Source of the DNA: Phytohabitans rumicis
Lineage (GTDB): Bacteria > Actinomycetota > Actinomycetes > Mycobacteriales > Micromonosporaceae
Assembly: GCF_011764445.1 (NCBI RefSeq)
Contig: NZ_BLPG01000001.1
Coordinates: 7,209,001-7,273,000, forward strand
Direction: 5' to 3'
Length of the DNA stretch: 64,000 nucleotides
Shown: positions 6,722 through 49,415 of the stretch, in pieces
How positions within the stretch are numbered: position 1 is the stretch's first letter
Layout: the number at the start of each line of letters is the position of its first letter
Notes under the pieces: model-generated
Databases searched by the model: none
What the model saw: the letters and a program-made list of their open reading frames with translations, nothing else
What the model was told of the DNA's origin: nothing
Position numbers and translations under genes: made by a program

Positions 6722-6729
6722 CCCGAACG

Positions 6730-30678: not shown

Positions 30679-31177
30679 ATGAGTGGCATGGGCTCGTCCG
30701 CGCAGTCGGCCGGCGCTCGCCCTGAGCGGCTGATCGGGGCGTTGATTCCTCCGCCCACACGGCGTTCCACCGGTGCCGGTTGAGGTGCCAGCTCTGCCCA
30801 GACTCCGGTTGCCGGCCGACGCCTGGTCTGGGCCTTTTCTACTCGACGCGGTGCGCCTGGACGCCTCTGGGCGGTTCTGCTCGCGCTTCCTGTTGCGAGT
30901 GCTGGCGTGGGCGCCGGGGCATCGCGTCGATCTGCGCGTCGGCGTCGACGCGGTGGTGATCGCCTCCTGCGCGGCGGGCCGGCAGGCGGTGGGCAGCCGC
31001 GGCGAACTGACCCTGCCGGTCTCCGCGCGGATACTGGCCGGACTCGACATGCAGGCACGGGTCGTGCTGGTCGCGGTGCCTGCACAGGATCTGTTGATCG
31101 TGCACCCTCCGGTGCTGGTCGCTCGTCTGTTGGCCGGGCACTACGGTCGCCAGCCGGAGCGCCACGACGATGGCTGA
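30679..31177 (+). pseudogene. AbrB/SpoVT-like protein, module 2, probable frameshift
   Basis: From ATG 30679 the frame reads MSGMGSSAQSAGARPERLIGALIPPP, which resembles the N-terminus of the module 3 protein (ARSEQLIGVLVPAAG), but it stops at about 30783. The rest of the module 3 pattern continues in another frame: LPADAWSGPFLLDAVRLDASGRFCSRFLLRVLAW, then GSRGELTLPVSARILAGLDMQARVVLVAVP to the stop at 31177. A one-base indel between about 30750 and 30780 explains this. Alternatively a GTG at 30773 starts a shorter functional protein that keeps both AbrB-like segments. The gene overlaps the integrase start by 8 bases. Confidence 0.55.
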
Positions 31178-32201: not shown

Positions 32202-32770
32202 CCGCAACCGCACAGCGGTGGACCGCACCGCCCCCAACGTCGTGGCGCACGCCGTGCCTGAGTGACGGTAGAGGACTGGGGACCAGGGCTGCCTACCCGG
32301 CTTCGGCGAGCCGACCGACCGCCTGCCGCGATCGGGGACGCACCCCTACATCCTGGCGCGCGCCGGCCCAGTAACACGCATGGCGTATGCCACCGTGTCG
32401 TTCCAATCCCCGAGGGCCCGTACAACCTGGGAACGCGGCTAACCAGCGGCGATCCAACATTCGTAGGTACCGCCCCGGCCTGCGTGAGCGTAGGCGCCGA
32501 TGCGACATTGTGTGTCGCCTGAGCCGAGCACGAACGCTGTGGTGAGGTCTATCTATCTACGGACAGTGGAAGATCGTCGTGGCCCACACGCGTAGCCAGC
32601 CTGGCGGCCATCGGCGCCAGGCGATGGTAGGGCTTACCTCCGACCGTATTCGTCGTCGGTTACGAGGTCCCGGCCAGTACGCCCAGGTGTGCCGGTCCGT
32701 GGTCATGTCGGTCGCCCAGCGCATACTGAGGTCCTGCTGGTTCCGGGCACGGTTTGTGAGAGGAGGGCGC
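32202..32770. other. Gap before the giant STAND gene, with repeat block A
   Basis: No gene is supported. At 32418-32470 lies CCGTACAACCTGGGAACGCGGC followed by a CAGCGGCGATCC segment, a diverged copy of blocks at 57340 and 62330. The promoter of the 32771 gene is probably in the last 200 bases. The frame of that gene is open back to 32579 but without protein-like sequence before about 32760. Confidence 0.4.
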
Positions 32771-35700
32771 TTGGGGCGCGCGAAGGCGAGCGGTGAGCAG
32801 GATGCCGTCCGTGGCTACGGGTACCAGTACGACCATGTCGCCGCCACCGCCTATGACCTGTACCGAGAGCGTCGCCATTTCACCCTTAGGCTTGTCGATC
32901 CCGAAGTGGGAGCGGTCGATGACTGCGTCCTCGTCTTGGCGCCAGTCACCGCCAGCGCCGGGCCAGAGGTCCATGGCTACCAGTACAAGTCTGCGGCAGG
33001 AAACCTGACATTGGCGGGACTGCTGGCCGCCGGAAAGACAAGGAAGGGTGAGCCGAAACCATCGCTGCTGGCGGAGCTTCTCGACGGCTGGCGGAAACTG
33101 AGTGCCCGCCACGGCGGCAACGAGGTGGCTGTCCACCTTGTGACGCCCGGCGCGCTCTCCCGCCGTGATCGGCCGCTAACGGCAGCGGTGAAGGCGGTCA
33201 GGGGAGCCGTGTTCCCAGCTCCATCCCGCCAACATACGGCCGCTTTCGTTGAATCCGTCCTGCAGCCGCTAGCTTCGGGTGGGCGGCTCCAAGACGTTGA
33301 TCCGGCGTGGAACCCGATCCTGGAGTGGATCCGCGAACAGATCGGAATGCAGGAAAGCGAGGTCGAGCCTTTCCTAGCTGCGCTTCGCATCGACACCGAA
33401 ACCGCCTCCGCGATGCCAGCGCACCCGGACCGACTGCCGCCTGAGCAGCGTTCCGAGGACATTGGTCATCTCGCGGCGGTGCTGCACCGCCGGGTGCAGG
33501 ACGGCGAGCCAGGTCAGGCCGTCGTGCTGACGCCTGAGGATGTGGCAGCACTGGCAGGGTTCGGCTCTCGCGGCCGCCCGCGGCACCTGCATCGCTTCCC
33601 GATCGACCTCGACCGATACACCCCTTTGGTTGAGGCTGAGCAGGCGCTGGCCACAGCGCTTGAGTTGGCGCCAAGCGGGTATCTGTGTGTTCTGGGGCCG
33701 CCAGGGAGCGGCAAGTCGACTCTGCTGGCCCATGCCACGCCAGGACTCGCCGACCGTGTGGTGACCTACCTGGCCTTCCTGCCTGGTGATGCGGCTGCCG
33801 CCGGCCGCGTCTCGGCGACCGATTTCCTTCACGACGTCGTCGTGCAGATGGAAGCGTCACAACTCAAGGTTCGGAAGAGCCTACCGGAGCGTGACCTGAA
33901 CGAGTTACGGCTCCGATTCCGGGACCTGCTGAGTGCCGCCAGCGCGGAGTTCGCGGAGACCGGCCGCCGCACCCTGCTGATCGTGGACGGTCTCGATCAT
34001 GTCGCCCGCGCGCGCGTGAGCCAGCCCTTGCTCGACGAACTCCCGACGCCGGAAGCTGTCCCGGACGGTGTCGTGATCGTGATGGGCTCTCAGACACTCT
34101 CACCGCTGAACGCCAAGATCCAAAATCATCTCGGCGGGGCCACCAAAGACAACACCCACCGTACTGTCGACCTGGCAGCTCACCGACTGACGTCGGCCGC
34201 AGTAGAGGGCGCATGCCATCGGCTCGCGGAGGCGGTCCCGGAGTTGGCGTTGACCAACAGGCAGATCGCCCGTGTGGTGCAACTTGTAGGCGGACACCCA
34301 CTCGCCTTGGCCTACGTCACCAACTCACTTGTCGACCTCATTGAGGAGCATGCCCTCGGTGCCGAGGCGTCCGTGGCCGACTGTGTCCGGATTCCCGCCA
34401 GTGCCGTTGACTGTGCCTTGGACCGCTGCGTCCGCTACTCCGGCAGTGTCGCTGACGACTACGCCGCCTACCTGGCCGACCTGCCAGACAGCGACGCTCT
34501 CCAAACACTTCTGGGAGACCTTGCCCGACTCCGGTCGCCGATCAACATGCGGTGGGTGCAGATGTGGGCGGACTCCTCGGCGCTGCGTAGCCTCGTTCGG
34601 CTCAAGCACCTGTTCCGCGTCCTTGACCGCCACTCGTGGATGTTCTTCCACGACTCGTTCAGGCAATTCGTACTGGAGGCGACCAGCGTCGATCTGCTCG
34701 GTGAACCGGACCCCGACGCCGACGCGCAGCACCACGCGCTCCTGGCGGATGAGTGCGCAGCGGCTGAGGAAGGATCGCGGGAGAACGGCGAGGAGTTCTT
34801 CCACTGCGCACAAGCTGGCCAGCAACAGCGTGCGCTTGCTTTGGCGACACCCGACCGACTCCGCGCCAGATTCCTTGCCGGCACCTCACCTGCCGTCCTT
34901 ACCGAGGACATTCGGACCGCCATGCGCCTCGCAGCCGAGGAGAGCGACGCTGCAGCGCTCGTTGGGCTCATGCTCATCCAGGCCGAACTTCAGTCACGCG
35001 AGCAGGTACTGGAGTCGGTCGACCTGACTGGTACGTGGATCGACGCCGGCGATCTGAACGCGGCCCTCGCGTACGCCCTTCCTAGCGCGACGCTGCGCAT
35101 CCCGATCCGGCATGCCCTGACCGCCGCCGTCAAGCTCGATGATCTCGCGCATCCCGCCGGACGCCTGTTGTTCGACGCCGCGGACATCCATGAACTCGGG
35201 TCAGTCGGTGGCACCGAACGATGGGAGATGTTGTCGGCTTGGGCGCAGGGTACCGTTCGCTTCCGTCCTCTATCGGTGCTCCACACCATCCTGCGACGGA
35301 TGTCTGAGCGCGCCCTGTCGCGCTTCACCGCGACAACAGAAAGCTACAGGCATCATGCTGCGTTCGCTCTGGGCGGGCACGCCGCCTACTTCGCGCGCTG
35401 CGCCGTCTCCGAGCTGCTCCGGACCGGAAGGTTGGTGGACGCCGAAGATCTGACGGCGAAGCTCCACGCCGGTGCATCCACATTGCTGGCAGCTATCCCC
35501 GCTCAGGACGCAGACGAGCGGACGTGGGGAGACGAGCTGATCGAATCAGCCTACGACGCCGTAGCGGATACGAGCATCCAAACGGCGAGGGTCCGGGCGA
35601 AGGCCGGTCAATGGGAGGAGGCACTCCAAACCCTTCAGAACCTAGCCACACCGTCCACCGGTGGAAACGATGCCGAACAGCGCGCGCTCGCCGCGATGGG

Positions 35701-38218
35701 CCAGAAGAACGCCGGCGAGGCCGCCTGGATCGCGTTGCAGATTGCCGCCAAGGCAACGCGCCCGTTGGCCAGAACCACACCCGACAGCAGACCAGCACCC
35801 ACCCCAACGGACGCGACTGACATGCAGCGCAAGACCTCCGTGGCCGCTGCCGCGTTCACATTCGGCACCAATCAGCTGGAGCGGCTCGACACGCCTGCCT
35901 CGATCACCAGCGGAGACCTATCGAGCACAGAGCACCAATCAGCCGTCCTCGGCGCCGCACTGCGCGTCCGCACTAGCCACCTCATCGTCGCCGGACTCAC
36001 AGCTCGATCCGTCGGGCAGACAACCACCGAGGACCTACTGATTGCAGCCGCGCCGACGCTACGGCAGCCGCCAGCCAATCAGCCAGCAGGTGCAAAGATC
36101 GATCCCGGAGCGGCCGCGCACCACGACAGGGCGGCCATCAGCCACGCCGCGCAGCTCAACAAGGCGGTGACGAACCTCGCTGTTCTACAGGCAGCCGTCA
36201 TCCTCGGCGATCTACCCATCGCAACGCTACGTGGCCTCGCTAGCCGCGCGCTCGCCACTATGCCAAGCGTCCCCGACCGTCTCTCCCTGGCCAGTGCACG
36301 CGCCGCAAATATGACCTTGATGCAGATGGTCATCGACGTGGCGACCCGTGGCTCGGCAGAACTGCTCCGCTACGTCGGAGAGAAGATCGCAGAGCCCGAT
36401 GGAGGCTCGTCGCCGCGCAGCAGACCGGCCGGCGCAGCAGCTGAGGGCGCCCTCAACTCTCGACGACCGCAGCGCCTCGGACTGCATATCCTGCGACGTG
36501 GCGTACGGATTGCATGGCTGGACGACGCGATCGCGGACGCCGACGCCGAGCTTCAGCAGACGTCGGGCGCCTACGAACGCGTGGACCTCCTCGTGACACA
36601 GGCAGCAGCGCACCTGCAGGCAGGGGAAACCGATACCGGCCGAGCGCTACTAGCACGTGTCATGCCCGAGTCGTTCAGCCCGCACTGGCGAAAGGATGTT
36701 CAGCTCGAAGTTTGGGTCCAGTGGCTCGTGCGCGCCACCCAGAACCGACCCGAGGCTCTGCTCGCCGAAGCCGTCGATGTCGCCCCGCTGATCGCCGCCC
36801 TGACCGATGCCACCGACGGCAGTGCCGAAGCCGCCGCTGAACTCTTGCTACAAGCAGTGGCTCGCGCTGCCCCACGCCACGCCGTGCGGCTAGCTGCATG
36901 GCAACTACGGGAAGGATCCCTATCGCTCACCGCAGCCCACGAGGCGTTGGCTGCCGGGATCGCCGCCAACATCCTCAACGCCGTCGTTCGTAACCCTGAC
37001 GACATCGAGGCTCACCACGCCGCCACCCTGCTGTGCTCCGTTATCGCCGCGGTCCTGGCACCACTATGCCCGTCCGCTCCAACCAGTGTGCTCCAGCCGA
37101 TACGCGACCTCATGACACGACTCCCGACCCCGGTCGCCACGACCCTCACAGAACAACTCACACGCGCGGTTGACGTCCATGTGCTCGCCAACACACGCCG
37201 GGACTGGCGCCGTGCCCTCCACCTTCCAGCCACTCCCACAAGCCAACGAGACGAAGCCGACGAGGATGCCTACCAACGACCCACGAGCCGAAACTCATCC
37301 CGGAACTGGGGAACCAGCGAGTACGGCCTCTTCAAACACGCTGACGGATCGACAAGCACCCCTGAGGCCGTCCACGAGGCGATCTCAGACCTAGAAACCG
37401 CACTGTCATGGCGGTCACGGCAGGCCGAAACCGACACCTTCTCCTGGCTACCCATACTTCAGCCTCTCATCGCTCGCGCCAACCGGCAGCAACTCGACGA
37501 ACTTGTCCTCGCGTTCGACCGTGCCCACGATGAGGCACAAATCCTCGTCGCCATCGCAGAGCAGTTGGAGAGTATCGAGGATCGCGATGATGCGGCGGCC
37601 ATCGCGCGAGTCGCTCTCGGCAAGACGGAACCCGAGTGGTGGGACGCCCACCACCGGCACGGAACCCGCCGGAGGGCATGGCAAGCCTTGGCGTCCTACG
37701 AGGGCTTGAGCGCTCGCAAGGAAGCCATGCGCGACCTGGCTCAACTACTGACATCTGCCGACTACTGGCCCGGCAACCTGATGTTGCAGCTCGACGACAT
37801 CCTGCCCGTCATCGCCCCCGACCTGCCGGCCGACGCCGTCTGGAACCAGGTCCGCCAATACCTGAACGTGATGCGCACAGGCGTCGTTGAAAGCCAACGG
37901 CCGCTCCTCGACGGACCAATTCACGCCGCCTGGTGGGCAAACCAGGCTGACGCGGTAACCATGGCGAAGCAGGACACCGATCCTCCGCTCCCGCACTGCG
38001 ACCAGGGCGACGTACCGCTTTCCATCCAAGCTGGACAGGCGCTCGTGGAGATGCTTGTCATCGATTTGGACCACCCAGCCTGGGTCGTTCGAGAGGCCGC
38101 ATGCGCCGCCTTGGCCTGGGCACTGACGCAAAGAGATTCGTTCGCCAACCAGGCTGCGACTCTAGCGGCAGGGCTGCTGGCCAGCCAAGACCATGAGCCT
38201 GCACTCGTGCCCCGCTAA
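32771..38218 (+). CDS. Giant nuclease-STAND protein, Avs-like candidate antiviral sensor
   Basis: TTG 32771 lies just behind AGGAGG (GTG 32756 is an alternative); the product is about 1815 residues. The N-terminal 100 residues, GYGYQYDHVAATAYDLY, then VDDCVLV (about 49-55) and HGYQYKS (about 67-73), have the D...Q-x-K pattern of a PD-(D/E)XK nuclease like the DUF4297/Cap4 effectors. The STAND NTPase follows: Walker A GPPGSGKST at about 309-317 and Walker B LLIVDGLDHV at about 402-411. The remaining 1300 residues are helical repeats. This is the layout of Avs proteins, which bind phage proteins and then activate the nuclease. Specific phage recognition cannot be read from sequence. Confidence 0.75.
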   Translation: MGRAKASGEQDAVRGYGYQYDHVAATAYDLYRERRHFTLRLVDPEVGAVDDCVLVLAPVTASAGPEVHGYQYKSAAGNLTLAGLLAAGKTRKGEPKPSLLAELLDGWRKLSARHGGNEVAVHLVTPGALSRRDRPLTAAVKAVRGAVFPAPSRQHTAAFVESVLQPLASGGRLQDVDPAWNPILEWIREQIGMQESEVEPFLAALRIDTETASAMPAHPDRLPPEQRSEDIGHLAAVLHRRVQDGEPGQAVVLTPEDVAALAGFGSRGRPRHLHRFPIDLDRYTPLVEAEQALATALELAPSGYLCVLGPPGSGKSTLLAHATPGLADRVVTYLAFLPGDAAAAGRVSATDFLHDVVVQMEASQLKVRKSLPERDLNELRLRFRDLLSAASAEFAETGRRTLLIVDGLDHVARARVSQPLLDELPTPEAVPDGVVIVMGSQTLSPLNAKIQNHLGGATKDNTHRTVDLAAHRLTSAAVEGACHRLAEAVPELALTNRQIARVVQLVGGHPLALAYVTNSLVDLIEEHALGAEASVADCVRIPASAVDCALDRCVRYSGSVADDYAAYLADLPDSDALQTLLGDLARLRSPINMRWVQMWADSSALRSLVRLKHLFRVLDRHSWMFFHDSFRQFVLEATSVDLLGEPDPDADAQHHALLADECAAAEEGSRENGEEFFHCAQAGQQQRALALATPDRLRARFLAGTSPAVLTEDIRTAMRLAAEESDAAALVGLMLIQAELQSREQVLESVDLTGTWIDAGDLNAALAYALPSATLRIPIRHALTAAVKLDDLAHPAGRLLFDAADIHELGSVGGTERWEMLSAWAQGTVRFRPLSVLHTILRRMSERALSRFTATTESYRHHAAFALGGHAAYFARCAVSELLRTGRLVDAEDLTAKLHAGASTLLAAIPAQDADERTWGDELIESAYDAVADTSIQTARVRAKAGQWEEALQTLQNLATPSTGGNDAEQRALAAMGQKNAGEAAWIALQIAAKATRPLARTTPDSRPAPTPTDATDMQRKTSVAAAAFTFGTNQLERLDTPASITSGDLSSTEHQSAVLGAALRVRTSHLIVAGLTARSVGQTTTEDLLIAAAPTLRQPPANQPAGAKIDPGAAAHHDRAAISHAAQLNKAVTNLAVLQAAVILGDLPIATLRGLASRALATMPSVPDRLSLASARAANMTLMQMVIDVATRGSAELLRYVGEKIAEPDGGSSPRSRPAGAAAEGALNSRRPQRLGLHILRRGVRIAWLDDAIADADAELQQTSGAYERVDLLVTQAAAHLQAGETDTGRALLARVMPESFSPHWRKDVQLEVWVQWLVRATQNRPEALLAEAVDVAPLIAALTDATDGSAEAAAELLLQAVARAAPRHAVRLAAWQLREGSLSLTAAHEALAAGIAANILNAVVRNPDDIEAHHAATLLCSVIAAVLAPLCPSAPTSVLQPIRDLMTRLPTPVATTLTEQLTRAVDVHVLANTRRDWRRALHLPATPTSQRDEADEDAYQRPTSRNSSRNWGTSEYGLFKHADGSTSTPEAVHEAISDLETALSWRSRQAETDTFSWLPILQPLIARANRQQLDELVLAFDRAHDEAQILVAIAEQLESIEDRDDAAAIARVALGKTEPEWWDAHHRHGTRRRAWQALASYEGLSARKEAMRDLAQLLTSADYWPGNLMLQLDDILPVIAPDLPADAVWNQVRQYLNVMRTGVVESQRPLLDGPIHAAWWANQADAVTMAKQDTDPPLPHCDQGDVPLSIQAGQALVEMLVIDLDHPAWVVREAACAALAWALTQRDSFANQAATLAAGLLASQDHEPALVPR

Positions 38219-38283
38219 CCGCAGGATGCAGCGACGGCGCACCACCATCGACCACGTCCGAAGCCGACGAGCCAACTGAAAGT

Positions 38284-39216
38284 GTGGGAATCGGAGGCGA
38301 CGCCGTACGCGAGATGGCCGCCCGCGCTATAGCCTCGGCCGCAGTAACATCGGGCCGCCGGGAACCACTGGTCTCATGTATCCCGTGCCCGGGAAGCCGA
38401 TCCTGGCTCGTCGCCGATAGCCTGCGGCGCGCATCTCCCATCGACCTCACCGAGACCCCAACACTGCCCCTGCCCGCCGCCTACCGGCTGACACTGCCGC
38501 GATCGCCCCATATGCGCGAGCCTGACCTCGACATGGGCCCATACGCCGAGAAGATCCAGGAAATAGCCCTTCACGCGGATCTCGACCCTGAAACGCTGCT
38601 GCACAGGCTCTCCTGGCTGACAGACCATGCCCAACGGCACATTCCAGACGACCGTGCCCTTCAACGGGCCGCCAAAGGCACATCGATCAACGGAATGCTC
38701 GTTCCCGCCTGGGCGCAAGCTGTCAGGGCGGCCTTCGGCCGGATCGTCAGCGAACTGGTCGCCGCACGACAGATCCAGCCGGACGCGCCGGGCCTTGCCG
38801 CCGCCCTCGAACTAGTCGATATCGACCTGGTTGCTCAGCCCTTCACCGCCACGCCGTCCTGGATCCCCGTCCCCATCCTGCGCGACTGGATCCCAGCGGA
38901 GCAATGGCTCAGCGAAACCAACGAAAGACTCGCGCAATACGAGGCGGGTTTAGCCGGCATCGATACAACGGCCACGGACAATGACCCGACAAACCGCCTC
39001 ACACTGACATCGGGCCTGCTAGATCAACTCGCAACCATCGGCATCGGTCCGATCGCCGCCGTTATCGGGGCTGACCACGAGTTCGTCGTTGGTGACAGGG
39101 GTGCCTTCGCAGAGCGGTATCTCCTGTCCACCACCTTCGACCATGTACAAGAATCACCCCCGGCGCGGTCCTCGGGCATCGTTCTGCCCCTAACCCGGCA
39201 CCGACAATTCGCATGA
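38284..39216 (+). CDS. Probable displaced continuation of the STAND protein (310 aa)
   Basis: The frame in which this ORF lies is open from before the stop of the STAND gene. It reads LTAGCSDGAPPSTTSEADEPTES, then GIGGDAVREMAARAIASAAV, without a ribosome site at GTG 38284. HEAT-like helices, a L-P-L-P-A-A-Y-R-L-T-L-P segment and long helical parts (LHRLSWLTDHAQRHI, PAWAQAVRAAFGRIVSELV) look like further sensor region rather than an independent enzyme. I suspect the original protein ran on through a now-lost frame near 38200-38218. It could also be a separate partner gene. No catalytic motifs are visible. Confidence 0.45.
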   Translation: MGIGGDAVREMAARAIASAAVTSGRREPLVSCIPCPGSRSWLVADSLRRASPIDLTETPTLPLPAAYRLTLPRSPHMREPDLDMGPYAEKIQEIALHADLDPETLLHRLSWLTDHAQRHIPDDRALQRAAKGTSINGMLVPAWAQAVRAAFGRIVSELVAARQIQPDAPGLAAALELVDIDLVAQPFTATPSWIPVPILRDWIPAEQWLSETNERLAQYEAGLAGIDTTATDNDPTNRLTLTSGLLDQLATIGIGPIAAVIGADHEFVVGDRGAFAERYLLSTTFDHVQESPPARSSGIVLPLTRHRQFA

Positions 39217-39713
39217 TTCAGACCAGGGACTGGCTGCTCGCCGACGGCGTGCGCCCGTCCGCTAACAGGTCCGGACCCAAACATTGGACAAGTTGGGCGG
39301 GCAAGCCCTTGCTGGTCTGGACCACCTCGCTTGCCCTGCATACCAACGCGGCCACCTGGCTATGTCTTAGCCCTGACCTCGCCGATGCTCATCAATGGCA
39401 ACCGCACCCTAGGCAACCCCTTTGCTGGCAGGACGCCCATGGGACGATTACGGCAGCGACCCTGCTCTGGCGTCGATCGTCGACCAGCATCAGGCACGGA
39501 CTCCACGAAACAGCCGGCCAAGGAAGCGCCGTCGTCCTAACAAATGCCGGGCTGACCACCCTCTCGAAGCGTGCCCCCATCCGGCGGACTCACCAGGTGA
39601 CACGATCCGCCGGCGGCAGCGAGTACGACCGCCCGTCGGAAGAGAGGCACCAATCGGCCATAGCTGTGCTCGCCACTACTCCAGGAGAGCGAGCGCGATC
39701 TAGGAGGCCGTAG
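39213..39713 (+). CDS. Small protein following the STAND gene, or its last domain (166 aa)
   Basis: It begins MIQTRDWLLADGVRPSANRSG in an ATGA overlap with the previous ORF. The segment PLLVWTTSLALHTNAATWLCLSPDLADAHQWQ and the later ATLLWRRSSTSIRHGLHETAGQGSAVVLTNAGL read as a folded beta-rich domain. Some long STAND defence proteins end with a domain of this sort, so it may belong to the same protein after a second frame change. It may equally be an independent gene coupled to it. The last 40 residues are basic and look disordered. Confidence 0.4.
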   Translation: MIQTRDWLLADGVRPSANRSGPKHWTSWAGKPLLVWTTSLALHTNAATWLCLSPDLADAHQWQPHPRQPLCWQDAHGTITAATLLWRRSSTSIRHGLHETAGQGSAVVLTNAGLTTLSKRAPIRRTHQVTRSAGGSEYDRPSEERHQSAIAVLATTPGERARSRRP

Positions 39714-39767
39714 GAGATCACCGCAGCACTACAAATGTCAGGGACAAGAATCGCTGGAGGCAATCCA

Positions 39768-40155
39768 GATCAGGTTCAGGCCGGGTACGACGGCGCCTTA
39801 CTTCCAGGGTGTCCACTCGGTCCAGGTGAAGACGGCGACCGCGGCGGCGACGACGGTGCTGAAGGCGACGATGACGCCACGCTTGCGTAGCCTCGCCCAC
39901 CAGCTACGCCCGTCCGCCGGCTGTGGACCGCTCGCATGCTGTCCGGTGACGGTGGCGTGATCGCCGTGCGTGGTCTGGGCGCCACCCATGCTGGAATGCG
40001 CGCCGCTAGCGCTTTGGCTACCTACGGCGGTGCCCAGCGCGCCGGACGCGGTTACCGGTCCGGCGGTGCCGTTCGAGATGTTGGTGCCGTTGGCTGTGTG
40101 CTGCGACGTTACGGTGATCGTGTTTTGGCCGCCGGTGACCACGAACTGGACCGCG
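39768..40155. repeat. 388-bp perfect inverted repeat, left arm
   Basis: The complement of this stretch is identical base for base to 42716-43103. It covers the last 118 codons of the minus-strand gene at 39798-41750 plus 30 bases beyond its stop. Homology ends sharply on both sides. The arms enclose 2560 bases of unique sequence. Confidence 0.97.
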
Positions 40156-41750
40156 TTTTCGCCGGTCGGTATCGGCGGCTGTAGCAGGTCCAGGTCGACA
40201 TCGGTGGAGGGGCGGTCGGCGGTCCGCTCGGGCTCGGTCCGAGACTCCGGGCTCTGCTCCTCCTCGGGCGGATCGAGGAATCGGAGGTTCAGGTCCTCGC
40301 GCTGCCGTTGGCCGGCGAGGCGGACGGCCGCCATCTTGGGGACCATGTCCTCCATTAGGCCGTTCAGCTCCTTGTGATAGCGGTCGAGGTCCGCCTGCGT
40401 GTTCGCCAGGTGCGTGGTGGCGTCGGCGGCCCGCTCGCGGATCCAGCGCTCGAGTTCCGGCGCCGGCACGGTGGCGTCGACCGTGAACACAGCTCGAATT
40501 TGGCTGCCTTGCACCTGCCAGCGCGGTTCGTGGTGACAGGTAGCGAGCGACGCTCGAACGATGCCGGCGTCGCCGTCGAAGTTGACGGCGACCATGTAGT
40601 CCCGCATGGTCCTGGTAACCATCCGAGTGGGATGGGGAACATCGCGTGCCTGCTTTCGGTACTCGCGAGGCGGCTCCACCACCATGGGATCGCTGCAGTA
40701 GGCCGTGACGGGTACGCGGTACCTCGCGACCAGCCGCTCGATGACAGCCTGGGGATCGTCGTCGAAGGTGTCATCATCGAGTGCAGCGATCTCCTCAACC
40801 GCGTCGCGGAGGCGCCGTCGAAGCTTGGTCGACGGCAGCTCGCCGGCCGCGGCAAGGAGCAAGGGATTCACGTCATCGAGTATCGCGCACGCCGGCCGTC
40901 TACCGCCGACGGCGCACACGTCGGCAATTCGTGCGTGACCTGCGGCGACGCTGTGGGGCGCAAGACCCTCCGCCGGCCATGTGCGAGCAAGCGCGTACGG
41001 GTCGGCGACAGTGAACAACTCAAACCGGCCGGTGAGGACGCCGCCACGGTTGCGGGCAGTCACTGTCCAGGTGGCCTCGCATGTCGCGTCCACTGGCTCG
41101 AGGAGATCGAGCGCGACATCCGGCAGTTGCAGGACTTGCCCAGGACGGAGATCGAACTCCGGATAGACCAGCTCGATGCAGTGGCCGCCCTCCGTGGACG
41201 TAATGGCGGTGTCCGGCTCAACGACATTACGCAGTCCGTGGTGGAACGAGTGCGGCGACAGCCTGATCTGCTCTGAAAGTTCGATTCGCCGCCGCGCCCG
41301 CCGTTCTCGCGCGCGTAACGCCGCGCGTTGCTCATCGGCAGTCTCGACCCGCGCCTTTCCAGCAGGCGCCGGCGGGATCGGGATCTCGGTCAGCAGGGCC
41401 TCATCAAGATCCGCTCGAAGGAGCTGTCGCTGGCCGTAAGCGTAGAGCTGAATCGTCACCCGCGCGCCCTGGACCAGGAGCTCGCCGAGGTTGCGCACCG
41501 ACACCTGTAACGGCGCGATCTTGCGCAGTCCAAGCAGCTTGTCGGTCCGGTCGTAGACCGCCGATTCCAACTGGCTCAGGTAGAGCCCCACCTGAGCCTC
41601 ATACCGCCTACGAGCCGGGTCGTCCGGATCGTCGGCATCCATCAGGGACAGCAGGCGGTGTTCCTCGCGAGCGACAAGAAGCGAGGTGTACCCGACCACG
41701 TCGGGCCGGGTCTCCAGCTCGAACGACGCCGGCTGTACCTCCAACTGCAT
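39798..41750 (-). CDS. Unknown protein with membrane-anchored C-terminus shared with the AbiTii protein (650 aa)
   Basis: ATG 41750 follows GGAGGAGG. Residues 1-120 (MQLEVQPASFELETRPDVVGY onward) are alpha/beta. Then come an Arg-rich coiled segment (RARERRARRRIELSEQI) and a beta-rich region with W-T-V-T-A-R-N-R-G-G. After a helical section a long acidic linker leads to residue 532. From there to 650 the protein is identical to the C-terminus of the 42114 product: a Thr/Ser/Gly/Asn-rich stretch (TGGQNTITVTSQHT), a basic segment WWARLRKR and one membrane helix (VIVAFSTVVAAAVAVFTW). I do not recognise the N-terminal part. Being paired with an AbiTii protein suggests phage defence. Topology would leave the large part on the side of the WWARLRKR residues, probably the cytoplasm. 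Confidence 0.65.
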   Translation of the reverse strand: MQLEVQPASFELETRPDVVGYTSLLVAREEHRLLSLMDADDPDDPARRRYEAQVGLYLSQLESAVYDRTDKLLGLRKIAPLQVSVRNLGELLVQGARVTIQLYAYGQRQLLRADLDEALLTEIPIPPAPAGKARVETADEQRAALRARERRARRRIELSEQIRLSPHSFHHGLRNVVEPDTAITSTEGGHCIELVYPEFDLRPGQVLQLPDVALDLLEPVDATCEATWTVTARNRGGVLTGRFELFTVADPYALARTWPAEGLAPHSVAAGHARIADVCAVGGRRPACAILDDVNPLLLAAAGELPSTKLRRRLRDAVEEIAALDDDTFDDDPQAVIERLVARYRVPVTAYCSDPMVVEPPREYRKQARDVPHPTRMVTRTMRDYMVAVNFDGDAGIVRASLATCHHEPRWQVQGSQIRAVFTVDATVPAPELERWIRERAADATTHLANTQADLDRYHKELNGLMEDMVPKMAAVRLAGQRQREDLNLRFLDPPEEEQSPESRTEPERTADRPSTDVDLDLLQPPIPTGENAVQFVVTGGQNTITVTSQHTANGTNISNGTAGPVTASGALGTAVGSQSASGAHSSMGGAQTTHGDHATVTGQHASGPQPADGRSWWARLRKRGVIVAFSTVVAAAVAVFTWTEWTPWK

Positions 41751-42113
41751 CGTTCCGTTCCTCCTCCAACTGCTGCCCTGCTTGCCACCCGAGCATCTCA
41801 CCCGGCAGGTTCCCTTTGCCGTCCTCCCGCATCGGGGCGTTTGCCGGCGGCGCGGTACATGCTAGGTGGGTCGGGCCTCTGCTCCGCCTGGCCTTTCGCG
41901 TTGCCTCGGCAGCTCGACGGCCGCGCACCTCGGCCAACGCCTGCACCTTTCCACAACAACGGGTCAGAGGTCGGGTTCGTTGGTTGACTTGCCGGAGGTC
42001 GACCCGGCCGCACCGGACAGCGGGTCTACGCCGCTCGCGAAGCAAGGGAGAATGCCTGCGTTCCGGTACGGCGAGGGGAGGCACTGTCGCACGGGCGTGG
42101 GAGAATGCTCGCC
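41751..42113. promoter_or_regulatory. Divergent promoter region of the inverted-repeat pair
   Basis: The 363 bases lie between the starts of the two divergent genes and must contain both promoters. I see no strong dyad or motif cluster. It is enclosed by the long inverted repeat, so an inversion would turn it around together with both genes. Confidence 0.45.
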
Positions 42114-43073
42114 ATGGTCGCCAGGCGTCAGGGCCTTCGTGCGCAGATCGAGGCGGGGGTGCTCGACGACACCCTGCCGGTGTCGTCGCTGCTGCAGAAG
42201 TGTGTCCTGCTAGGTGGGCAGGCCGGATCGCAGAAAATGGTCGACTGGGCCCGGCAAGAGCTCAACGGCTACGACCCGAAGACCGTGCCGGTGTACCGTC
42301 GCCTGTCCATCGGCCTGATGGCGGTGATGACGAACCGCGCCGGATACAACCCGATGCATCGACGAATCAGCGACTCCGTCCTGCCGCCGAGGGTTCGCGA
42401 GTTTTTACGTGAAGAGGGCACCGACCTGGACATCGCCGTACTTCACGGGAACATCGGGCAACTGGAGGCGCTGGCAGGTACGGGCAAGGCCGAGCACACG
42501 CTCATCCCCTGGTGGGGTGACATCATCACGGACCTGCTGAATAAGTACAGCGTGGCGGACAACACCCGGGTTCAGTTGGTTTACTGGCCCGTCTCCGACT
42601 CGGCGCTCAAGGGCCTGCTCGTCCAGGTCCGCACCGCCTTAGCCGAACTCGTCGCCGAACTCGATGCGCTGACACCACAAGGCCAGGATGTCCCGGACAA
42701 AGCAGCCGCCGACCGCGCGGTCCAGTTCGTGGTCACCGGCGGCCAAAACACGATCACCGTAACGTCGCAGCACACAGCCAACGGCACCAACATCTCGAAC
42801 GGCACCGCCGGACCGGTAACCGCGTCCGGCGCGCTGGGCACCGCCGTAGGTAGCCAAAGCGCTAGCGGCGCGCATTCCAGCATGGGTGGCGCCCAGACCA
42901 CGCACGGCGATCACGCCACCGTCACCGGACAGCATGCGAGCGGTCCACAGCCGGCGGACGGGCGTAGCTGGTGGGCGAGGCTACGCAAGCGTGGCGTCAT
43001 CGTCGCCTTCAGCACCGTCGTCGCCGCCGCGGTCGCCGTCTTCACCTGGACCGAGTGGACACCCTGGAAGTAA
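42114..43073 (+). CDS. AbiTii-domain protein with shared membrane-anchored C-terminus (319 aa)
   Basis: ATG 42114 (alternative 42105) is preceded by GGGAG. Residues about 5-150 have the AbiTii pattern: LRAQIEAGVLDDTLPVSSLLQKCVLLGG, then W-A-R-Q-E-L-N-G-Y-D with V-P-V-Y-R-R downstream, and later LIPWWGDIITDLLNKY. AbiTii domains are associated with abortive infection, and their mechanism is unknown. From about residue 202 the sequence is identical to the C-terminus of the divergent 650-residue protein: Thr/Ser/Gly-rich stretch, basic WWARLRKR and a membrane helix ending FTWTEWTPWK. Sharing that tail suggests both proteins assemble at the same membrane site. Confidence 0.75.
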   Translation: MVARRQGLRAQIEAGVLDDTLPVSSLLQKCVLLGGQAGSQKMVDWARQELNGYDPKTVPVYRRLSIGLMAVMTNRAGYNPMHRRISDSVLPPRVREFLREEGTDLDIAVLHGNIGQLEALAGTGKAEHTLIPWWGDIITDLLNKYSVADNTRVQLVYWPVSDSALKGLLVQVRTALAELVAELDALTPQGQDVPDKAAADRAVQFVVTGGQNTITVTSQHTANGTNISNGTAGPVTASGALGTAVGSQSASGAHSSMGGAQTTHGDHATVTGQHASGPQPADGRSWWARLRKRGVIVAFSTVVAAAVAVFTWTEWTPWK

Positions 43074-43103
43074 GGCGCCGTCGTACCCGGCCTGAACCTG
43101 ATC
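42716..43103. repeat. 388-bp perfect inverted repeat, right arm
   Basis: Identical in reverse complement to 39768-40155. It begins inside the codon preceding the shared AVQFVVTGG segment and ends 30 bases after the stop of the AbiTii gene with CCTGAACCTGATC. Confidence 0.97.
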
Positions 43104-43523
43104 ATCAGGCGCCGCAGCCGGGGACGCCAGACTGGCTTCAAGGTCGTCGTGCTGGAATGCAAAGGCATCCAGCAGGACATGGACGAGTTGCTGCGCGGCT
43201 ACCCGCATGACGAGAACTGGACGTCCCGGTGGCCCGGTCGACGCCGCCGACGCATCTGGCCCTCAGCCGGATCACCTCCTATCTGCTCGACCCGGACGGT
43301 GACGGCGACCTGTGGTCGGGCCCGCTCCAGCTCCCACGGCCACCGACACCGCCGACGTTCAGGAGGAGCCAGCGTCCGCCGGTCCCTACGTCTTCGACAT
43401 CCCGCCTGATCGGCGCAGCTGGTTCGTTCAGATCCTCACCCGCGCGGCGGCCGCCACCACGCTGCTGTTCGCCGGCAACGGCGCCGCCGCCCGCGGCTAC
43501 GCACACCCCGCCAGCGCGGCGAC
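43104..43523 (+). pseudogene. Degraded gene remnants
   Basis: Protein-like pieces appear in successive frames: VVVLECKGIQQDMDELLRGYPHDENW, then LALSRITSYLLDPDGDGDLWSGP, then VFDIPPDRRSWFVQILTRAAAATTLLFAGNG. None has a start with ribosome site. They look like one or two decayed genes, the last with a hydrophobic segment. I cannot name the family. Confidence 0.35.
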
Positions 43524-43850
43524 ATGCCCACTATCGACCAACAGGCGCTGTTCGACCTCGATCCGCCGTGGGCCACCAGCACCGCAACCACCCTGCGCCT
43601 ACCCGACGGCCTCCACCTGGAGGGCACCCGGTACCGAACCCCGCTACCAGACGGCAAGGTCCTCGAAGTCTTTCGCGGCGTCGAACGACGCCTGTACAGT
43701 CTGCTCGCCAACGGCCAGATCGGACCGTACCTGCGGGCTGCGCCGGGCACCTATCGCAAATGGTCCAGAACACCACGCCCAAGTGGCGCAGTGCTCTCCC
43801 TCGGCCGTGACGGCACCGCACTCGTCGTACGCGTCACCAACGGACGCTAA
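43524..43850 (+). CDS. Hypothetical protein (108 aa)
   Basis: ATG 43524 starts MPTIDQQALFDLDPPWATSTATTLRLPDGLHLEG. The rest reads as a compact beta-rich protein (YRTPLPDGKVLEVFRGVERRLYSLL) ending LSLGRDGTALVVRVTNGR. No ribosome site of note and no known family. It may be the C-terminal part of the degraded gene upstream. There is no membrane helix. Confidence 0.4.
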   Translation: MPTIDQQALFDLDPPWATSTATTLRLPDGLHLEGTRYRTPLPDGKVLEVFRGVERRLYSLLANGQIGPYLRAAPGTYRKWSRTPRPSGAVLSLGRDGTALVVRVTNGR

Positions 43851-44080
43851 CCGCACTCGGCAGTGCCCGGGGTTACGAAGCTGGTCACCACCGCCGGTCG
43901 CAGTGGCTCACGTCGCCCGAACGCGAGCTCGTCTCCCGGCGAAGTCGATTGGGCAAGACGACGGCGAGGGCGTCGCCGACCGGGTTGGCGGCGCGCAGGC
44001 CGGACGAACTCGACGGCCATTCCGGTGGCGGCACGGATCCTGTTCCGTGGTCTCGCCCTGTCCTTGACGTCGGCGACCTG
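43851..44080. other. Short gap between convergent genes
   Basis: The stretch lies between the stop of the 43524 gene and the stop of the split resolvase-like gene. No gene or strong hairpin was found. Confidence 0.3.
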
Positions 44081-44259
44081 TCATGCGGTGGGGTGGTGGG
44101 CGGTGACGGTCTGGGCGAGTTTGCGGTGGGCGCCGGTCAGGCTGCGGGTTTGGGCGATCCCGGCGGTGGGGTTGCTGCTGTTGGGTTTGGCGAGGGTGCC
44201 GCGGCGTGCCCAGACGTCGGTTGAGCTTCCCCCGTAGGCCGGACACCCGAGGTGTGGGG

Positions 44260-45135
44260 TCAACGGTCGTGATCAGACGGGGTGTGGAGTTTCTCGAACT
44301 CGATGGGACTGCGCATTCCGAGGCTGGAATGGCGTCTTACCGGGTTGTACCAGCATTCTATCCATTCGAAGATAGCGTTGGCAAGCTCGTCGCGGGTCTT
44401 CCATTTCTTGCGGTCGAGTACCTCTAGTTGTAGAGTTCCCCAGAAGGATTCCATCATGGCGTTGTCGTAGCAGTCGCCGACGGTACCCATCGAGCCGAGC
44501 AGACCGGTTTTCCGCAGACGCTGACCGAAGTCCCATGATGTGTATTGGGTGCCGTGATCGGAATGCAGAATCGTTTCCTGCCGGGCTGGTGGGCGGCGGA
44601 CGATCGCCATCGACAACGCGTCCAGGACCAGCTCGGTACGAAGATGATCGGCCATGGAGTAGCCGATGATCCGCCGACTGTAGGCGTCCATGACCGCGGC
44701 GCAGTACAGCTTGCCCTCCTCGGTAGGGTGTTCGGTGATGTCGGTCAGCCACAACCGGTTCGGCGCGTCCACATCGAACTGTCGGTTGACCAGGTCCGCC
44801 GACGGCGTGGCCTGCGGGTCACGGACGGTGCACCAGGACCGGCGCCGGTAGTACAGGCCCTGGATGCCCGCCGACCGCATCAGCCGGGCCACCCGTTTCT
44901 CATTCACGTGCAGGCCCACGCCGAGGGTCAACTCAGCGTGTACCCGGGGCGACCCGTACGTTTTCTTCCGCGGATCAGCGTGGATTTTCTCGATGTACCG
45001 CAGCAGCATCTCGTTCTCCTGCTCCCGCGCCGATACCGGCCGATCCTTCCATTCGTAAAATCCGGAGCGGGACACACCCAGCACTCGGCAGGCCACCGCG
45101 ACGTCGATGCCGTCATCGGCGAGTTCTCGGACCAA
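44260..45135 (-). CDS. IS3-family OrfB transposase (DDE), copy 2, intact
   Basis: The 291-residue frame starts at TTG 45135 but is most likely made as a fusion with OrfA by -1 slipping. An HTH_21-type segment (CRVLGVSRSGFYEWK) comes first. The integrase core has D132 (WLTDITEH), D193 (HSDHGTQYTS) and E229 (NAMMESFWGTLQLE), plus the downstream R-R-H-S-S-L-G-M-R-S-P signature of IS3 enzymes. Length is normal for the family. The sequence equals copy 3; copy 1 differs by one missing base. Confidence 0.93.
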   Translation of the reverse strand: MVRELADDGIDVAVACRVLGVSRSGFYEWKDRPVSAREQENEMLLRYIEKIHADPRKKTYGSPRVHAELTLGVGLHVNEKRVARLMRSAGIQGLYYRRRSWCTVRDPQATPSADLVNRQFDVDAPNRLWLTDITEHPTEEGKLYCAAVMDAYSRRIIGYSMADHLRTELVLDALSMAIVRRPPARQETILHSDHGTQYTSWDFGQRLRKTGLLGSMGTVGDCYDNAMMESFWGTLQLEVLDRKKWKTRDELANAIFEWIECWYNPVRRHSSLGMRSPIEFEKLHTPSDHDR

Positions 45136-45143
45136 CCCGAACG

Positions 45144-45440
45144 CTACTTTGGGAGCACATTCTCCCGGGCGAAGTAAGCAGCCGCCCGCTTGAGAATCTC
45201 ATTCTCCACCTCAAGCTGCCGGTTACGGCGGCGCAGCTCGGCCAACTCCTTCTTCTCCGCACTGCTCAACCGACCCGCACCGCCGCCGCCGGCGTCGTCG
45301 ACGTCGGCCTGGGCCATCCAGTTACGCAGACACGACTCGCTGATACCCAAATCCTTCGCCAACATCGCGACCGGTTTGTCGCCGGTCCGGGCCAACTGCA
45401 CGGCTCGCTGGCGGAACTCTGCAGGGTGTGGGGCAGGCAT
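45144..45440 (-). CDS. IS3-family OrfA, copy 2
   Basis: Same 98-residue helix-turn-helix plus coiled-coil protein as in copy 1. The slippery heptamer C-CCA-AAG lies at 45147-45153 (complement) directly before the stop, allowing OrfAB production. Confidence 0.9.
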   Translation of the reverse strand: MPAPHPAEFRQRAVQLARTGDKPVAMLAKDLGISESCLRNWMAQADVDDAGGGGAGRLSSAEKKELAELRRRNRQLEVENEILKRAAAYFARENVLPK

Positions 45441-46292
45441 GAGACGACATCCTTCCTGGAAGCCGCCGTCCACCTCACCTCAGGTGTCCGGAGAACCGGG
45501 GGAAGCTCAGGTGGGTCGGATCAGGTAGTTGGTGGTCAGGATGGTGGCGTGGTGGGCGAGGAGGAACTCCAGGATGTGGTGCAGTTTCTGACTGTTGCGG
45601 GAGTGTCGGCTCAGCGCTGACGTGCAGGCGACGAAGTTGCCGCCGGTCGCCTTGCCGAGTAGGTCCATCAGGTGCTGGTCGAAGCGCGGGTCGATCGCGC
45701 CGAACACCATCGTGGTGTCATCGCGGTTGGCTGGTGGTGCGGTGGCGATCTCGTCGCCGGTGGGAAGGCCGGGGATTGGGGCAGTGGGTAGGCGGAGCGG
45801 CCGCCGGCCGCCGTCGGTGAAGGCTTCGGTCAGCGCGTGCAGGCATGCCCAGGCGCGGGGGTAGCGGGCGGGCAGACCGGTGAACGGGTTGGGGCCTTGG
45901 TAGTCGACGGGGTTGCGGCGGCGCGCGGCGAGGAAGTGCGATAGTGGGCCGGCGGCGTACTCGGTGGCCGTGGTGATCCCTGAGGTGAGTTGGCCGTTGT
46001 GGTGGGCCTGTTCGAGCAGGCTGTTGCGGACTACCAGGGTGACCTTTGTCTTGAGGTCCAATGGGGTGTCGAGTGGTTTGTGGTCGAACACCTCCTTGAC
46101 GAACGGGGTGATCAGCACGTCCTGGTCGTGCGGGGGCATGGGTGGCCAGCGCTTCGGCCCGGGCAGGATGTCCTGGCCGCTGCGGGAGGCGAGGTCGCGG
46201 TCGACTCCGCAGGCGGTGGTCAGCATGTGGGGCAGCACGTCATCGCAGTATTCGATCATGTGGTCGGGGTTGGGACTGGTCATCTGCTCCAC

Positions 46293-46620
46293 CCGGGCCG
46301 TTCGGCATCAGTTGGTCAATGTCGTCCGAGGTGATCGTCGCTTGTGGAGCGGCCGTGGTGGTGGAGGCGCTGGACCTTGCCCAAAGGCCCTGCGTCGCCA
46401 CGCTTTCGGGGAGTTGCTGCCGCGGTCTGCGGCGGCTATCGTGGTGGTATGTGCACCCGTTTGGTGCACAAATGCTACGCGTGGGGGTTCAATCCCCCCT
46501 CGGACACCAGTTGTGGTGGATTTCCACCACCGGTTCGCATCTGTGCGCATGCGCCCTGACGCGTTCGGGTGATCCCCCGAACGGGACTCACTTTGGGCAG
46601 ATCCGGGTCTGGCGGCCACG
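46293..46620. other. Gap upstream of module 3 with the palindromic block
   Basis: No gene is supported. The conserved block at 46438-46515 fills the centre. A G5-TTCAATC-C5 hairpin lies at 46482-46498. Confidence 0.4.
46450..46470. repeat. Palindrome in a block shared with module 2
   Basis: Arms TGTGCACC and GGTGCACA with spacer CGTTT, identical to 30466-30486. The following flank is AAATGCTACGCGTGGGG, then a hairpin GGGGG-TTCAATC-CCCCC, then CTCGGACACC. The last part looks like a tRNA 3' end but has no 5' half. Confidence 0.6.
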
Positions 46621-47106: not shown

Positions 47107-48094
47107 CCCGGACCGCATCGTTACCGCGCGGGCGCTGCTGGCCCGGCTCGGCGTCACCGTCGCCGACCTGCAGCAAGCCGAGCGACCACGGACGCCGACC
47201 ATGGCCGAGTACCTGCCCCGCGTGATGGCGGCCGCCGGCCCGGGCGCGCGACGCACCTACGGCTCCTACTGGACGCGGATGGCGCAGGCGTGGGGCGACC
47301 GACCCCTCGATGCGGTCGCGGCCAGCGACATCGAGGCCCTACAACACGAGATCATCGCCGGCGCCTGCTCCCGGCGGACGAGCCGTGGTGGCCGGCACGC
47401 CGGCGAGCACGTGATAGCCGCCGCCCGGGCGGTCTACACCCGGGCCATCGCCGACGGCCTGATCGACCCAGGCGCGAGCCCGGCGCATCGGGTGGTCAAG
47501 CCACGCCGGCTACCGAGCACGCGGCGGGCACTGACCCCGAGCGAATTGGAGGAGATCAACCTCGCCGCCCGGTGCACCGGCAACGACGTCATCCTCGACG
47601 CACTGCTGCTACGGCTGCACACCGAGACCGCCTGCCGCCGCGGCGGGGCGCTCGGCCTGCGCCTGGTGGACCTGGACGTGGATCGCGGGCTGGTGCGGCT
47701 GCGGGAGAAGGGCGGCACCCAACGTTGGCAGCCCATCACCCTCGACCTGGCCACCAGCCTGGCCGACCACGCGGCCTGTCGCGGCGCCGTATTGCCCACC
47801 GACGGCTTGCTGCGGTTCCGCAACGGGAGTGCGTTGACCAGCCGCCGCTACGACCACCTCTGGCACCGCCTCGGCCAGCAAATACCGTGGGTCGCCGCCC
47901 AAGGCGTCTCCACCCACTGGCTACGTCACACCACCCTGACCTGGGTCGAGCGGCACTTCGGCTACGGCGTCGCCCGCGCCTACGCCGGCCACACCGACCG
48001 AAAAGGCCCAGCAACCACCACCTACATCAAGGCCGACCTACAAGCAGTCGCCACCGCCCTGGCGGCAATGACCGGGCAACCACATCCCCTCTGA
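47096..48094 (+). CDS. Tyrosine integrase, module 3, tail replaced by IS3
   Basis: The protein (332 aa) has all catalytic residues: Arg in ETACRRGGALGLR, Lys in REKGGTQRWQ, H-x-x-R in THWLRHTTLTW, His in YAGHTDRKG and Tyr in TTTYIKADLQ. IS3 copy 3 is inserted at 48092, and its first bases supply the TGA stop after TGQPHPL. Beyond the element the old reading frame goes on for 11 codons (AVPAHSPPLS, stop at 49413). Only the extreme tail behind the nucleophile is lost, so the enzyme may well be active. Confidence 0.88.
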   Translation: MPADPDRIVTARALLARLGVTVADLQQAERPRTPTMAEYLPRVMAAAGPGARRTYGSYWTRMAQAWGDRPLDAVAASDIEALQHEIIAGACSRRTSRGGRHAGEHVIAAARAVYTRAIADGLIDPGASPAHRVVKPRRLPSTRRALTPSELEEINLAARCTGNDVILDALLLRLHTETACRRGGALGLRLVDLDVDRGLVRLREKGGTQRWQPITLDLATSLADHAACRGAVLPTDGLLRFRNGSALTSRRYDHLWHRLGQQIPWVAAQGVSTHWLRHTTLTWVERHFGYGVARAYAGHTDRKGPATTTYIKADLQAVATALAAMTGQPHPL

Positions 48095-48130
48095 GCTTCC
48101 CCCCGTAGGCCGGACACCCGAGGTGTGGGG

Positions 48131-49006
48131 TCAACGGTCGTGATCAGACGGGGTGTGGAGTTTCTCGAACTCGATGGGACTGCGCATTCCGAGGCTGGAA
48201 TGGCGTCTTACCGGGTTGTACCAGCATTCTATCCATTCGAAGATAGCGTTGGCAAGCTCGTCGCGGGTCTTCCATTTCTTGCGGTCGAGTACCTCTAGTT
48301 GTAGAGTTCCCCAGAAGGATTCCATCATGGCGTTGTCGTAGCAGTCGCCGACGGTACCCATCGAGCCGAGCAGACCGGTTTTCCGCAGACGCTGACCGAA
48401 GTCCCATGATGTGTATTGGGTGCCGTGATCGGAATGCAGAATCGTTTCCTGCCGGGCTGGTGGGCGGCGGACGATCGCCATCGACAACGCGTCCAGGACC
48501 AGCTCGGTACGAAGATGATCGGCCATGGAGTAGCCGATGATCCGCCGACTGTAGGCGTCCATGACCGCGGCGCAGTACAGCTTGCCCTCCTCGGTAGGGT
48601 GTTCGGTGATGTCGGTCAGCCACAACCGGTTCGGCGCGTCCACATCGAACTGTCGGTTGACCAGGTCCGCCGACGGCGTGGCCTGCGGGTCACGGACGGT
48701 GCACCAGGACCGGCGCCGGTAGTACAGGCCCTGGATGCCCGCCGACCGCATCAGCCGGGCCACCCGTTTCTCATTCACGTGCAGGCCCACGCCGAGGGTC
48801 AACTCAGCGTGTACCCGGGGCGACCCGTACGTTTTCTTCCGCGGATCAGCGTGGATTTTCTCGATGTACCGCAGCAGCATCTCGTTCTCCTGCTCCCGCG
48901 CCGATACCGGCCGATCCTTCCATTCGTAAAATCCGGAGCGGGACACACCCAGCACTCGGCAGGCCACCGCGACGTCGATGCCGTCATCGGCGAGTTCTCG
49001 GACCAA
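48131..49006 (-). CDS. IS3-family OrfB transposase (DDE), copy 3, intact
   Basis: Same 291-residue protein as in copy 2, with the D132, D193, E229 triad. Frame start TTG 49006; a fusion with OrfA is expected through the slippery heptamer. Confidence 0.93.
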   Translation of the reverse strand: MVRELADDGIDVAVACRVLGVSRSGFYEWKDRPVSAREQENEMLLRYIEKIHADPRKKTYGSPRVHAELTLGVGLHVNEKRVARLMRSAGIQGLYYRRRSWCTVRDPQATPSADLVNRQFDVDAPNRLWLTDITEHPTEEGKLYCAAVMDAYSRRIIGYSMADHLRTELVLDALSMAIVRRPPARQETILHSDHGTQYTSWDFGQRLRKTGLLGSMGTVGDCYDNAMMESFWGTLQLEVLDRKKWKTRDELANAIFEWIECWYNPVRRHSSLGMRSPIEFEKLHTPSDHDR

Positions 49007-49014
49007 CCCGAACG

Positions 49015-49311
49015 CTACTTTGGGAGCACATTCTCCCGGGCGAAGTAAGCAGCCGCCCGCTTGAGAATCTCATTCTCCACCTCAAGCTGCCGGTTACGGC
49101 GGCGCAGCTCGGCCAACTCCTTCTTCTCCGCACTGCTCAACCGACCCGCACCGCCGCCGCCGGCGTCGTCGACGTCGGCCTGGGCCATCCAGTTACGCAG
49201 ACACGACTCGCTGATACCCAAATCCTTCGCCAACATCGCGACCGGTTTGTCGCCGGTCCGGGCCAACTGCACGGCTCGCTGGCGGAACTCTGCAGGGTGT
49301 GGGGCAGGCAT
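49015..49311 (-). CDS. IS3-family OrfA, copy 3
   Basis: Identical to OrfA of copies 1 and 2 (98 aa, helix-turn-helix and coiled coil). The slippery heptamer lies at 49018-49024 on the complement, just before the TAG. Confidence 0.9.
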   Translation of the reverse strand: MPAPHPAEFRQRAVQLARTGDKPVAMLAKDLGISESCLRNWMAQADVDDAGGGGAGRLSSAEKKELAELRRRNRQLEVENEILKRAAAYFARENVLPK

Positions 49312-49415
49312 GAGACGACATCCTTCCTGGAAGCCGCCGTCCACCTCACCTCAGGTGTCCGGAGAACCGGGGAAGCTCACTCGCTGTCCCAGCCCACAGC
49401 CCACCTCTGAGCTGA

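Follow-up and report, generated by a model that had tools for sequence, protein, structure and literature searches.

A perfect inverted repeat in Phytohabitans rumicis as a probable footprint of recent effector exchange in a defence-type gene

Introduction

In the modular defence systems of bacteria, the same sensor is combined with effectors of many kinds (nuclease, TIR, membrane), and effector exchange is a known principle. How an exchange comes about is mostly deduced from fusions that are old and have diverged. Here we describe a locus of Phytohabitans rumicis at which two divergent genes, one encoding a 650-residue protein with a match to the PDC-S54 family and the other an AbiTii protein, end in the same membrane-type tail, encoded by the two arms of a perfect inverted repeat. 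The locus lies in a 64,000-nucleotide stretch of assembly GCF_011764445.1 (contig NZ_BLPG01000001.1, positions 7,209,001 to 7,273,000), here called the window, whose coordinates we use unless stated otherwise.

The closest described relatives of the two proteins differ in how well they are characterized. AbiT is bicistronic, and AbiTii is the second gene of this lactococcal abortive-infection pair; lactococcal AbiTii showed no toxicity in Escherichia coli (PMC3985639). AbiTii domains elsewhere precede HEPN RNase domains, being fused in other bacteria to the Ymh or c2405 type; the lactococcal founder lacks a HEPN, which is hence not required (PMC3710099). PDC-S54 (PADLOC model PDLC05036) is a candidate family only, a term that we did not find in the literature searched. 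Its 410-position model spans an N-module (about positions 10-206) and a nuclease (about 290-404).

Results

Two divergent genes end in the same tail

The arms, the two genes and their parts are placed as follows.

39768-40155, minus strand: recipient arm, carrying the putatively copied AbiTii tail (about residue 532 to the stop) plus 30 bp past the stop; from arm identity and the search of the own genome
42716-43103, plus strand: donor arm, carrying the probably native AbiTii tail plus 30 bp past the stop; from the homologues L022, L023 and L048, which carry the tail
39798-41750, minus strand: gene for the 650-residue P0001, a putative chimera of a PDC-S54-like protein with an AbiTii tail in place of the nuclease; from a PADLOC match and DNA comparison with L003
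40266-40826, minus strand: PDC-S54 N-module of P0001, residues 309-495 (PADLOC PDLC05036, 7.3e-9, profile positions 16-206 of 410)
39822-39878, minus strand: membrane-type helix of P0001, residues 625-643 (Kyte-Doolittle 2.15 over 19 residues)
42105-43073, plus strand: AbiTii gene encoding P0002, the putative donor, start possibly at 42114 (PF18864, 1e-23; PADLOC AbiTii, 1.2e-27)
42141-42674, plus strand: AbiTii domain of P0002, residues 13-190 (PF18864)
42993-43049, plus strand: membrane-type helix of P0002, residues 297-315 (Kyte-Doolittle 2.15 over 19 residues)

Direct comparison confirmed that the arms are exact reverse complements over all 388 bases, and a search of the own genome (10.7 Mb in three contigs) returned two places, both at 100% identity, which are these two arms. 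Each arm comprises the final codons of one of the two divergent genes, the stop codon and the 30 bp that follow. Read in frame in both genes, the encoded tail runs from a Thr/Ser/Gly/Asn-rich linker through a basic stretch into a single hydrophobic stretch, as had been described in the original prediction, which was made from the sequence without database searches. A search for RNA families around the arms gave one match, far below its gathering score.

P0002 has 322 residues; a start at the ATG at 42114, whose ribosome site seems better placed, would give 319. The original prediction had recognized an AbiTii domain in this protein, and the PF18864 match, which clears the family's curated cut-off, bears this out. 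No other Pfam family matched P0002 up to E 1, so it has no C-terminal HEPN RNase domain and thereby differs from the HEPN-fused AbiTii proteins of other bacteria. P0001, whose C-terminus comes from the other arm, had been called a 650-residue unknown; the length was right, and the protein is not entirely unknown, given the PDC-S54 match of its residues 309-495. The predicted arrangement, in which N-terminal parts that are unrelated to each other and each have links to defence sit on a common anchor, is supported.

The tail of the 650-residue protein stands where its relatives have a nuclease

The nearest relative of P0001 is a Micromonospora sp. CPCC 205371 protein (L003; L015 is the same gene as L003/L005), which is 87% identical over P0001 residues 1-523. 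It matches the PDC-S54 model over positions 16-404, its nuclease part alone over 290-404, and has at its C-terminal end a nuclease-like domain, in which the motif GQGKVDI..ECKVW occurs. We found the same domain in L043 (62% identity to P0001) and in L044 (63-70% in two pieces), which spans 5473-8418 of its locus in genome G081 and is split by a stretch with an apparent transposase gene, named by eye. All three close relatives found therefore end in a nuclease that we call PD-(D/E)xK-type from its motif. In Pfam this domain gave only a weak HSDR_N match (0.14), and a PDB sequence search gave none; a further PDB sequence search returned one match at 0.92, which is not meaningful. The 650-residue protein lacks the nuclease: its PDC-S54 match stops at position 206, and the nuclease codons are absent in comparison with L003 DNA. 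Unlike PDC-S54, it carries an AbiTii tail instead, together with an extra N-terminal region of ~300 residues.

The DNA comparison places this difference within the gene. Window and L003 align at 89% identity (1554 of 1749 columns) from a point before the start codon as far as window position 40183, L003 position 9568. The next 549 bp of L003 (9569-10117; 183 codons that encode the nuclease, ..GQGKVDIAIHWNGRLVGIIECKVW..) are absent from the window. After the gap, 23 of 23 bp agree (residues QPPIPTG) before the sequences diverge, and the arm with the AbiTii tail starts four bases past this remnant, in frame.

40182-40183, minus strand: scar, the site of the missing 549 bp of nuclease codons relative to L003 9569-10117; from the DNA alignment
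40160-40182, minus strand: 23-bp exact remnant of the old C-terminus (QPPIPTG) between the scar and the putatively copied tail, identical to L003 10118-10140

Because gap, remnant and in-frame arm are all seen against L003, the window gene appears to have lost 183 codons and taken its neighbour's end, and we consider that this replacement of the nuclease very probably took place. Short stretches common to both genes near the junction, such as CAGCCGCCGA, suggest microhomology. One template-switching event or two separate steps of gain and loss would both fit.

Inverted repeats can be misassembled, and an arm could in principle be an artefact of this kind. The assembly has just three contigs, however, and an artefact would need to combine an exact loss of 183 codons, retention of 23 bp of the old C-terminus and an in-frame join, which makes this explanation practically negligible.

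The tail appears native to a branch of AbiTii

Searched with P0002, 354 genomes of the family gave 20 with a match, among them the own genome. The other 19 matches and a gene of a Saccharopolyspora plasmid (L048, the one examined among 19 plasmid records with AbiTii-like matches) make up the 20 AbiTii relatives considered here. Two of them, L022 and L023, are full-length relatives with 57-59% identity across P0002 residues 2-321, tail included, and L048 is 43% identical over residues 86-321, again with the tail. The four tails align in a common conserved pattern with the end FTW..WTPW. Since these three homologues carry the tail and none of the loci of the three closest P0001 relatives does (0/3), the tail is, judging from its homologues, native to this branch of AbiTii. 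P0002 shares with AbiTii the PF18864 domain, and a membrane-type C-terminal stretch (Kyte-Doolittle at least 1.6) is found in 14 of its 20 relatives.

We also considered whether the tail is a module that is widespread on its own. A profile of the four tails matched four of 394 genomes of the class – the own genome and three weak matches (E 2e-4 to 9.5e-4) – and this reading was rejected: by eye, one weak match (L052) is itself an AbiTii protein, and the other two (L050 and L051) look like chance.

The PDC-S54 N-module has different kinds of partner

Searches for PDC-S54-type proteins in partly overlapping draws of 200 family, 394 class and 336 phylum genomes matched 12, 6 and 6 non-own genomes, respectively. 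By eye, 20 of the 26 non-own places have the nuclease (two of them, L057 and L058, as the nuclease part only), one has a TIR domain (L017), two end after the N-module (L059 and L064), two look like chance matches (L065 and L066) and one could not be resolved (L018). An AbiTii-like tail is present at none of the 26.

In the TIR case, from genome G091, the TIR domain comes after the N-module and falls out of frame. Two TIR proteins of Pantoea and Kocuria plasmids were tried as further fusions of this kind and rejected, as they have no PDC-S54 match, so that a TIR on the N-module rests on L017, with its frame lost within the TIR part. On a Bosea vestrisii plasmid (L076, 2983-6582), a lone N-module gene (profile positions 10-199, 9.7e-33) overlaps a caspase/DEAD-helicase gene, and this gene pair is possibly a two-gene defence system. 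The partners of the N-module are therefore of more than one kind. The pattern is that of effector exchange in modular defence, with one N-module joined to a nuclease or a TIR, lying beside a caspase-helicase and, here, bearing a membrane tail.

The region before the N-module has a narrower distribution. The first 262 residues of P0001 matched the own genome alone among 298 genomes of the order, and the ~300-residue region is so far seen only in the window, L003, L043 and, interrupted, L044; the whole protein matched two of six genomes of the genus. No relatives of P0001 were found in plasmids, and none were found in viral contigs. Searches of the own genome listed no intact PDC-S54, though the same searches did not list P0001 itself: the PDC-S54 model, run genome-wide at E 0.001, missed P0001, and a profile of its relatives found it with the window's own sequence as one profile row.

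The copy is probably young, and the N-terminal part is constrained

Between the window and L003, codons 1-523 show a synonymous divergence (dS) of 0.20 and a replacement divergence (dN) of 0.068 (dN/dS 0.33). With 0 of 388 differences between the arms against a dS of 0.20, the copy is young relative to the split of window and L003, or has been kept alike by conversion. When codons with a single change were polarised by site, synonymous and replacement changes stood at 22:20 on the window branch and 17:22 on the L003 branch; polarised by whole codon, they stood at 16:5 and 12:9. Residues 1-523 of P0001 are constrained in the window lineage and in that of L003 alike, and in the former replacement changes are not in excess.

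The original prediction had read the perfect identity as recent duplication, gene conversion or frequent inversion. Recent copying fits these data, and inversion as a protein switch does not. Long identical inverted arms are, as a matter of general knowledge, a substrate for homologous recombination, and the arms might on that ground serve to flip the 2560-bp centre. The arms are identical and 3'-terminal, however, so inversion leaves both proteins the same; a flip would change only the DNA downstream of each gene, and the centre is filled by the 5' parts of both genes. We regard an invertible switch as very improbable.

The two genes are not seen together elsewhere

The original prediction had proposed a two-component membrane-localised defence system and had suggested asking whether the pair and the tail recur together. 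Adjacent divergent genes with identical tails are what a dedicated system with both proteins on the same anchor would present. Yet in a small sample of loci, AbiTii lies beside none of three P0001 relatives, and a 650-residue-type gene beside none of four AbiTii relatives (four examined of the 20 collected). In the genome taken as that of L003, AbiTii gave no match; upstream of L003, on the side where the window has AbiTii, stands a gene with a TIR domain (PF13676). The tail, moreover, belongs to AbiTii, is missing from the three P0001-type loci and occupies the former nuclease position. The proposal does not hold up against this distribution, and a dedicated two-component system is improbable.

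The locus lies within a putative integrative element

46-bp direct repeats, identical at 44 of 46 positions, flank the pair of genes.

30457-30502, plus strand: left 46-bp direct repeat, putative attachment site; from repeat comparison
31170-32201, plus strand: left-end tyrosine recombinase of the putative element (PF00589, 2.5e-13)
32579-38218, plus strand: gene for an Avs1b-like STAND NTPase, neighbouring cargo (PADLOC PDLC02159, 1.1e-28, residues 361-855; Pfam AAA/NACHT)
46441-46486, plus strand: right 46-bp direct repeat, running into tRNA-3'-end-like sequence; 44/46 identical to the left repeat

Each repeat has a small gene and a tyrosine recombinase (PF00589) after it, and the two recombinases are 75% identical. 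Beyond the window, at G000:C1:7290768, the repeat occurs a third time; the 1.7 kb past this copy revealed no such recombinase. The second and third copies run on into tRNA-3'-end-like sequence; ARAGORN found no tRNA at the repeats, and a search for RNA families around them gave one match, far below its gathering score. From its anatomy, 30457-46486 looks like an integrative element of ~16 kb with defence cargo (the Avs1b-like gene, the chimera and AbiTii), next to another such element.

Other features lie within or around this region. Further left, 27167-28162 encodes another relative of the tyrosine recombinases, the third, which shares 55% identity with the one at 31170. Three copies of an IS3-type transposase element (5793-7096, 44209-45510 and 48092-49379; 99.6-99.8% identical, rve domain tested on the third copy) include one before the right repeat and one just after the second recombinase. 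A repeat of ~80-150 bp occurs at 57213-57367 and 62206-62356 of the window and at 7347-7438 and 7551-7631 of the L003 locus; 81 bp of it, searched against the own genome, matched four places, three of them within 12 kb. Further right, an NB-ARC/TPR protein (59237-62110) is a possible NLR-like defence gene.

Discussion

We favour, with measured confidence, a reading in which the inverted repeat was left behind by local copying that happened recently and gave one defence-type gene a new effector end. Before this event the gene would have encoded its own N-terminal region, the PDC-S54 N-module and, at the C-terminus, a nuclease of PD-(D/E)xK type. The codons for the nuclease would then have dropped out in this lineage with the frame preserved. 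Onto the remainder, the closing part of the divergent AbiTii neighbour – linker, basic stretch, membrane-type helix, stop codon and 30 bp – would have been copied in inverted orientation, presumably by a microhomology or template-switch route and with later homogenisation, if any. In the function that we consider most likely, the N-module would still sense, or be triggered by, infection, and the output would have moved from DNA cutting to the membrane, either as anchoring or as membrane damage on clustering. Several parts of this account are read directly from sequence: three relatives have the nuclease, the window gene shows the gap of 549 bp and the remnant of 23 bp, the arms are identical, and AbiTii homologues carry the tail. 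A membrane output is suggested because AbiTii proteins often end in one membrane-type stretch; whether the chimera is a working membrane-acting product we judge to be evenly balanced.

Several observations weigh against this reading. Among the three closest AbiTii relatives, L024 is 57% identical in the domain (residues 1-226) and ends differently, so not every AbiTii protein has the tail. Of the relatives found, only L003 is close enough for DNA comparison. With no other such membrane tail among the 26 PDC-S54-type places, there is no independent sign that the architecture works; and with no differences between the arms, the event is too young for selection after it to be measurable. The chimera has no PDB relative by sequence, and its predicted structure, from a two-row alignment, had a predicted local distance difference test score (pLDDT) of 35 and no fold.

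The chief alternative, which we think somewhat unlikely, accepts the same copying and holds that it produced a dead or dying gene, for which the tail does no more than provide a stop codon and a membrane helix that has no role. Broken or truncated members of the family do exist – L044 is split, L059 and L064 stop behind the N-module and L017 has its TIR out of frame – and the lack of a second tailed member fits as well. A decaying gene would not be expected, however, to have both junctions in frame (549 bp is 183 codons and the tail is in phase, by our estimate about 1 in 9 by chance), a frame open over 650 codons and an N-terminal part without excess replacement changes.

More generally, and only tentatively, we propose that defence proteins carried as mobile cargo may swap effectors by copying the 3' end of a neighbour, even from the opposite strand and without long homology, and that such a swap here recently turned a DNA-cutting protein into a membrane-acting one. 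Unlike in other effector exchanges, the donor gene here is adjacent and identical, so that source and route are readable; in the part of the literature that we searched, we found no described case with donor and recipient adjacent and identical. With donor, recipient, lost domain and 23-bp remnant all identifiable, both the route and its functional consequence become directly testable. If both products work, they would have a common membrane address and might co-assemble through the tail, and the trigger of one sensor could then fire both. The PDC-S54 N-module, for its part, joins the candidates for a general trigger module.

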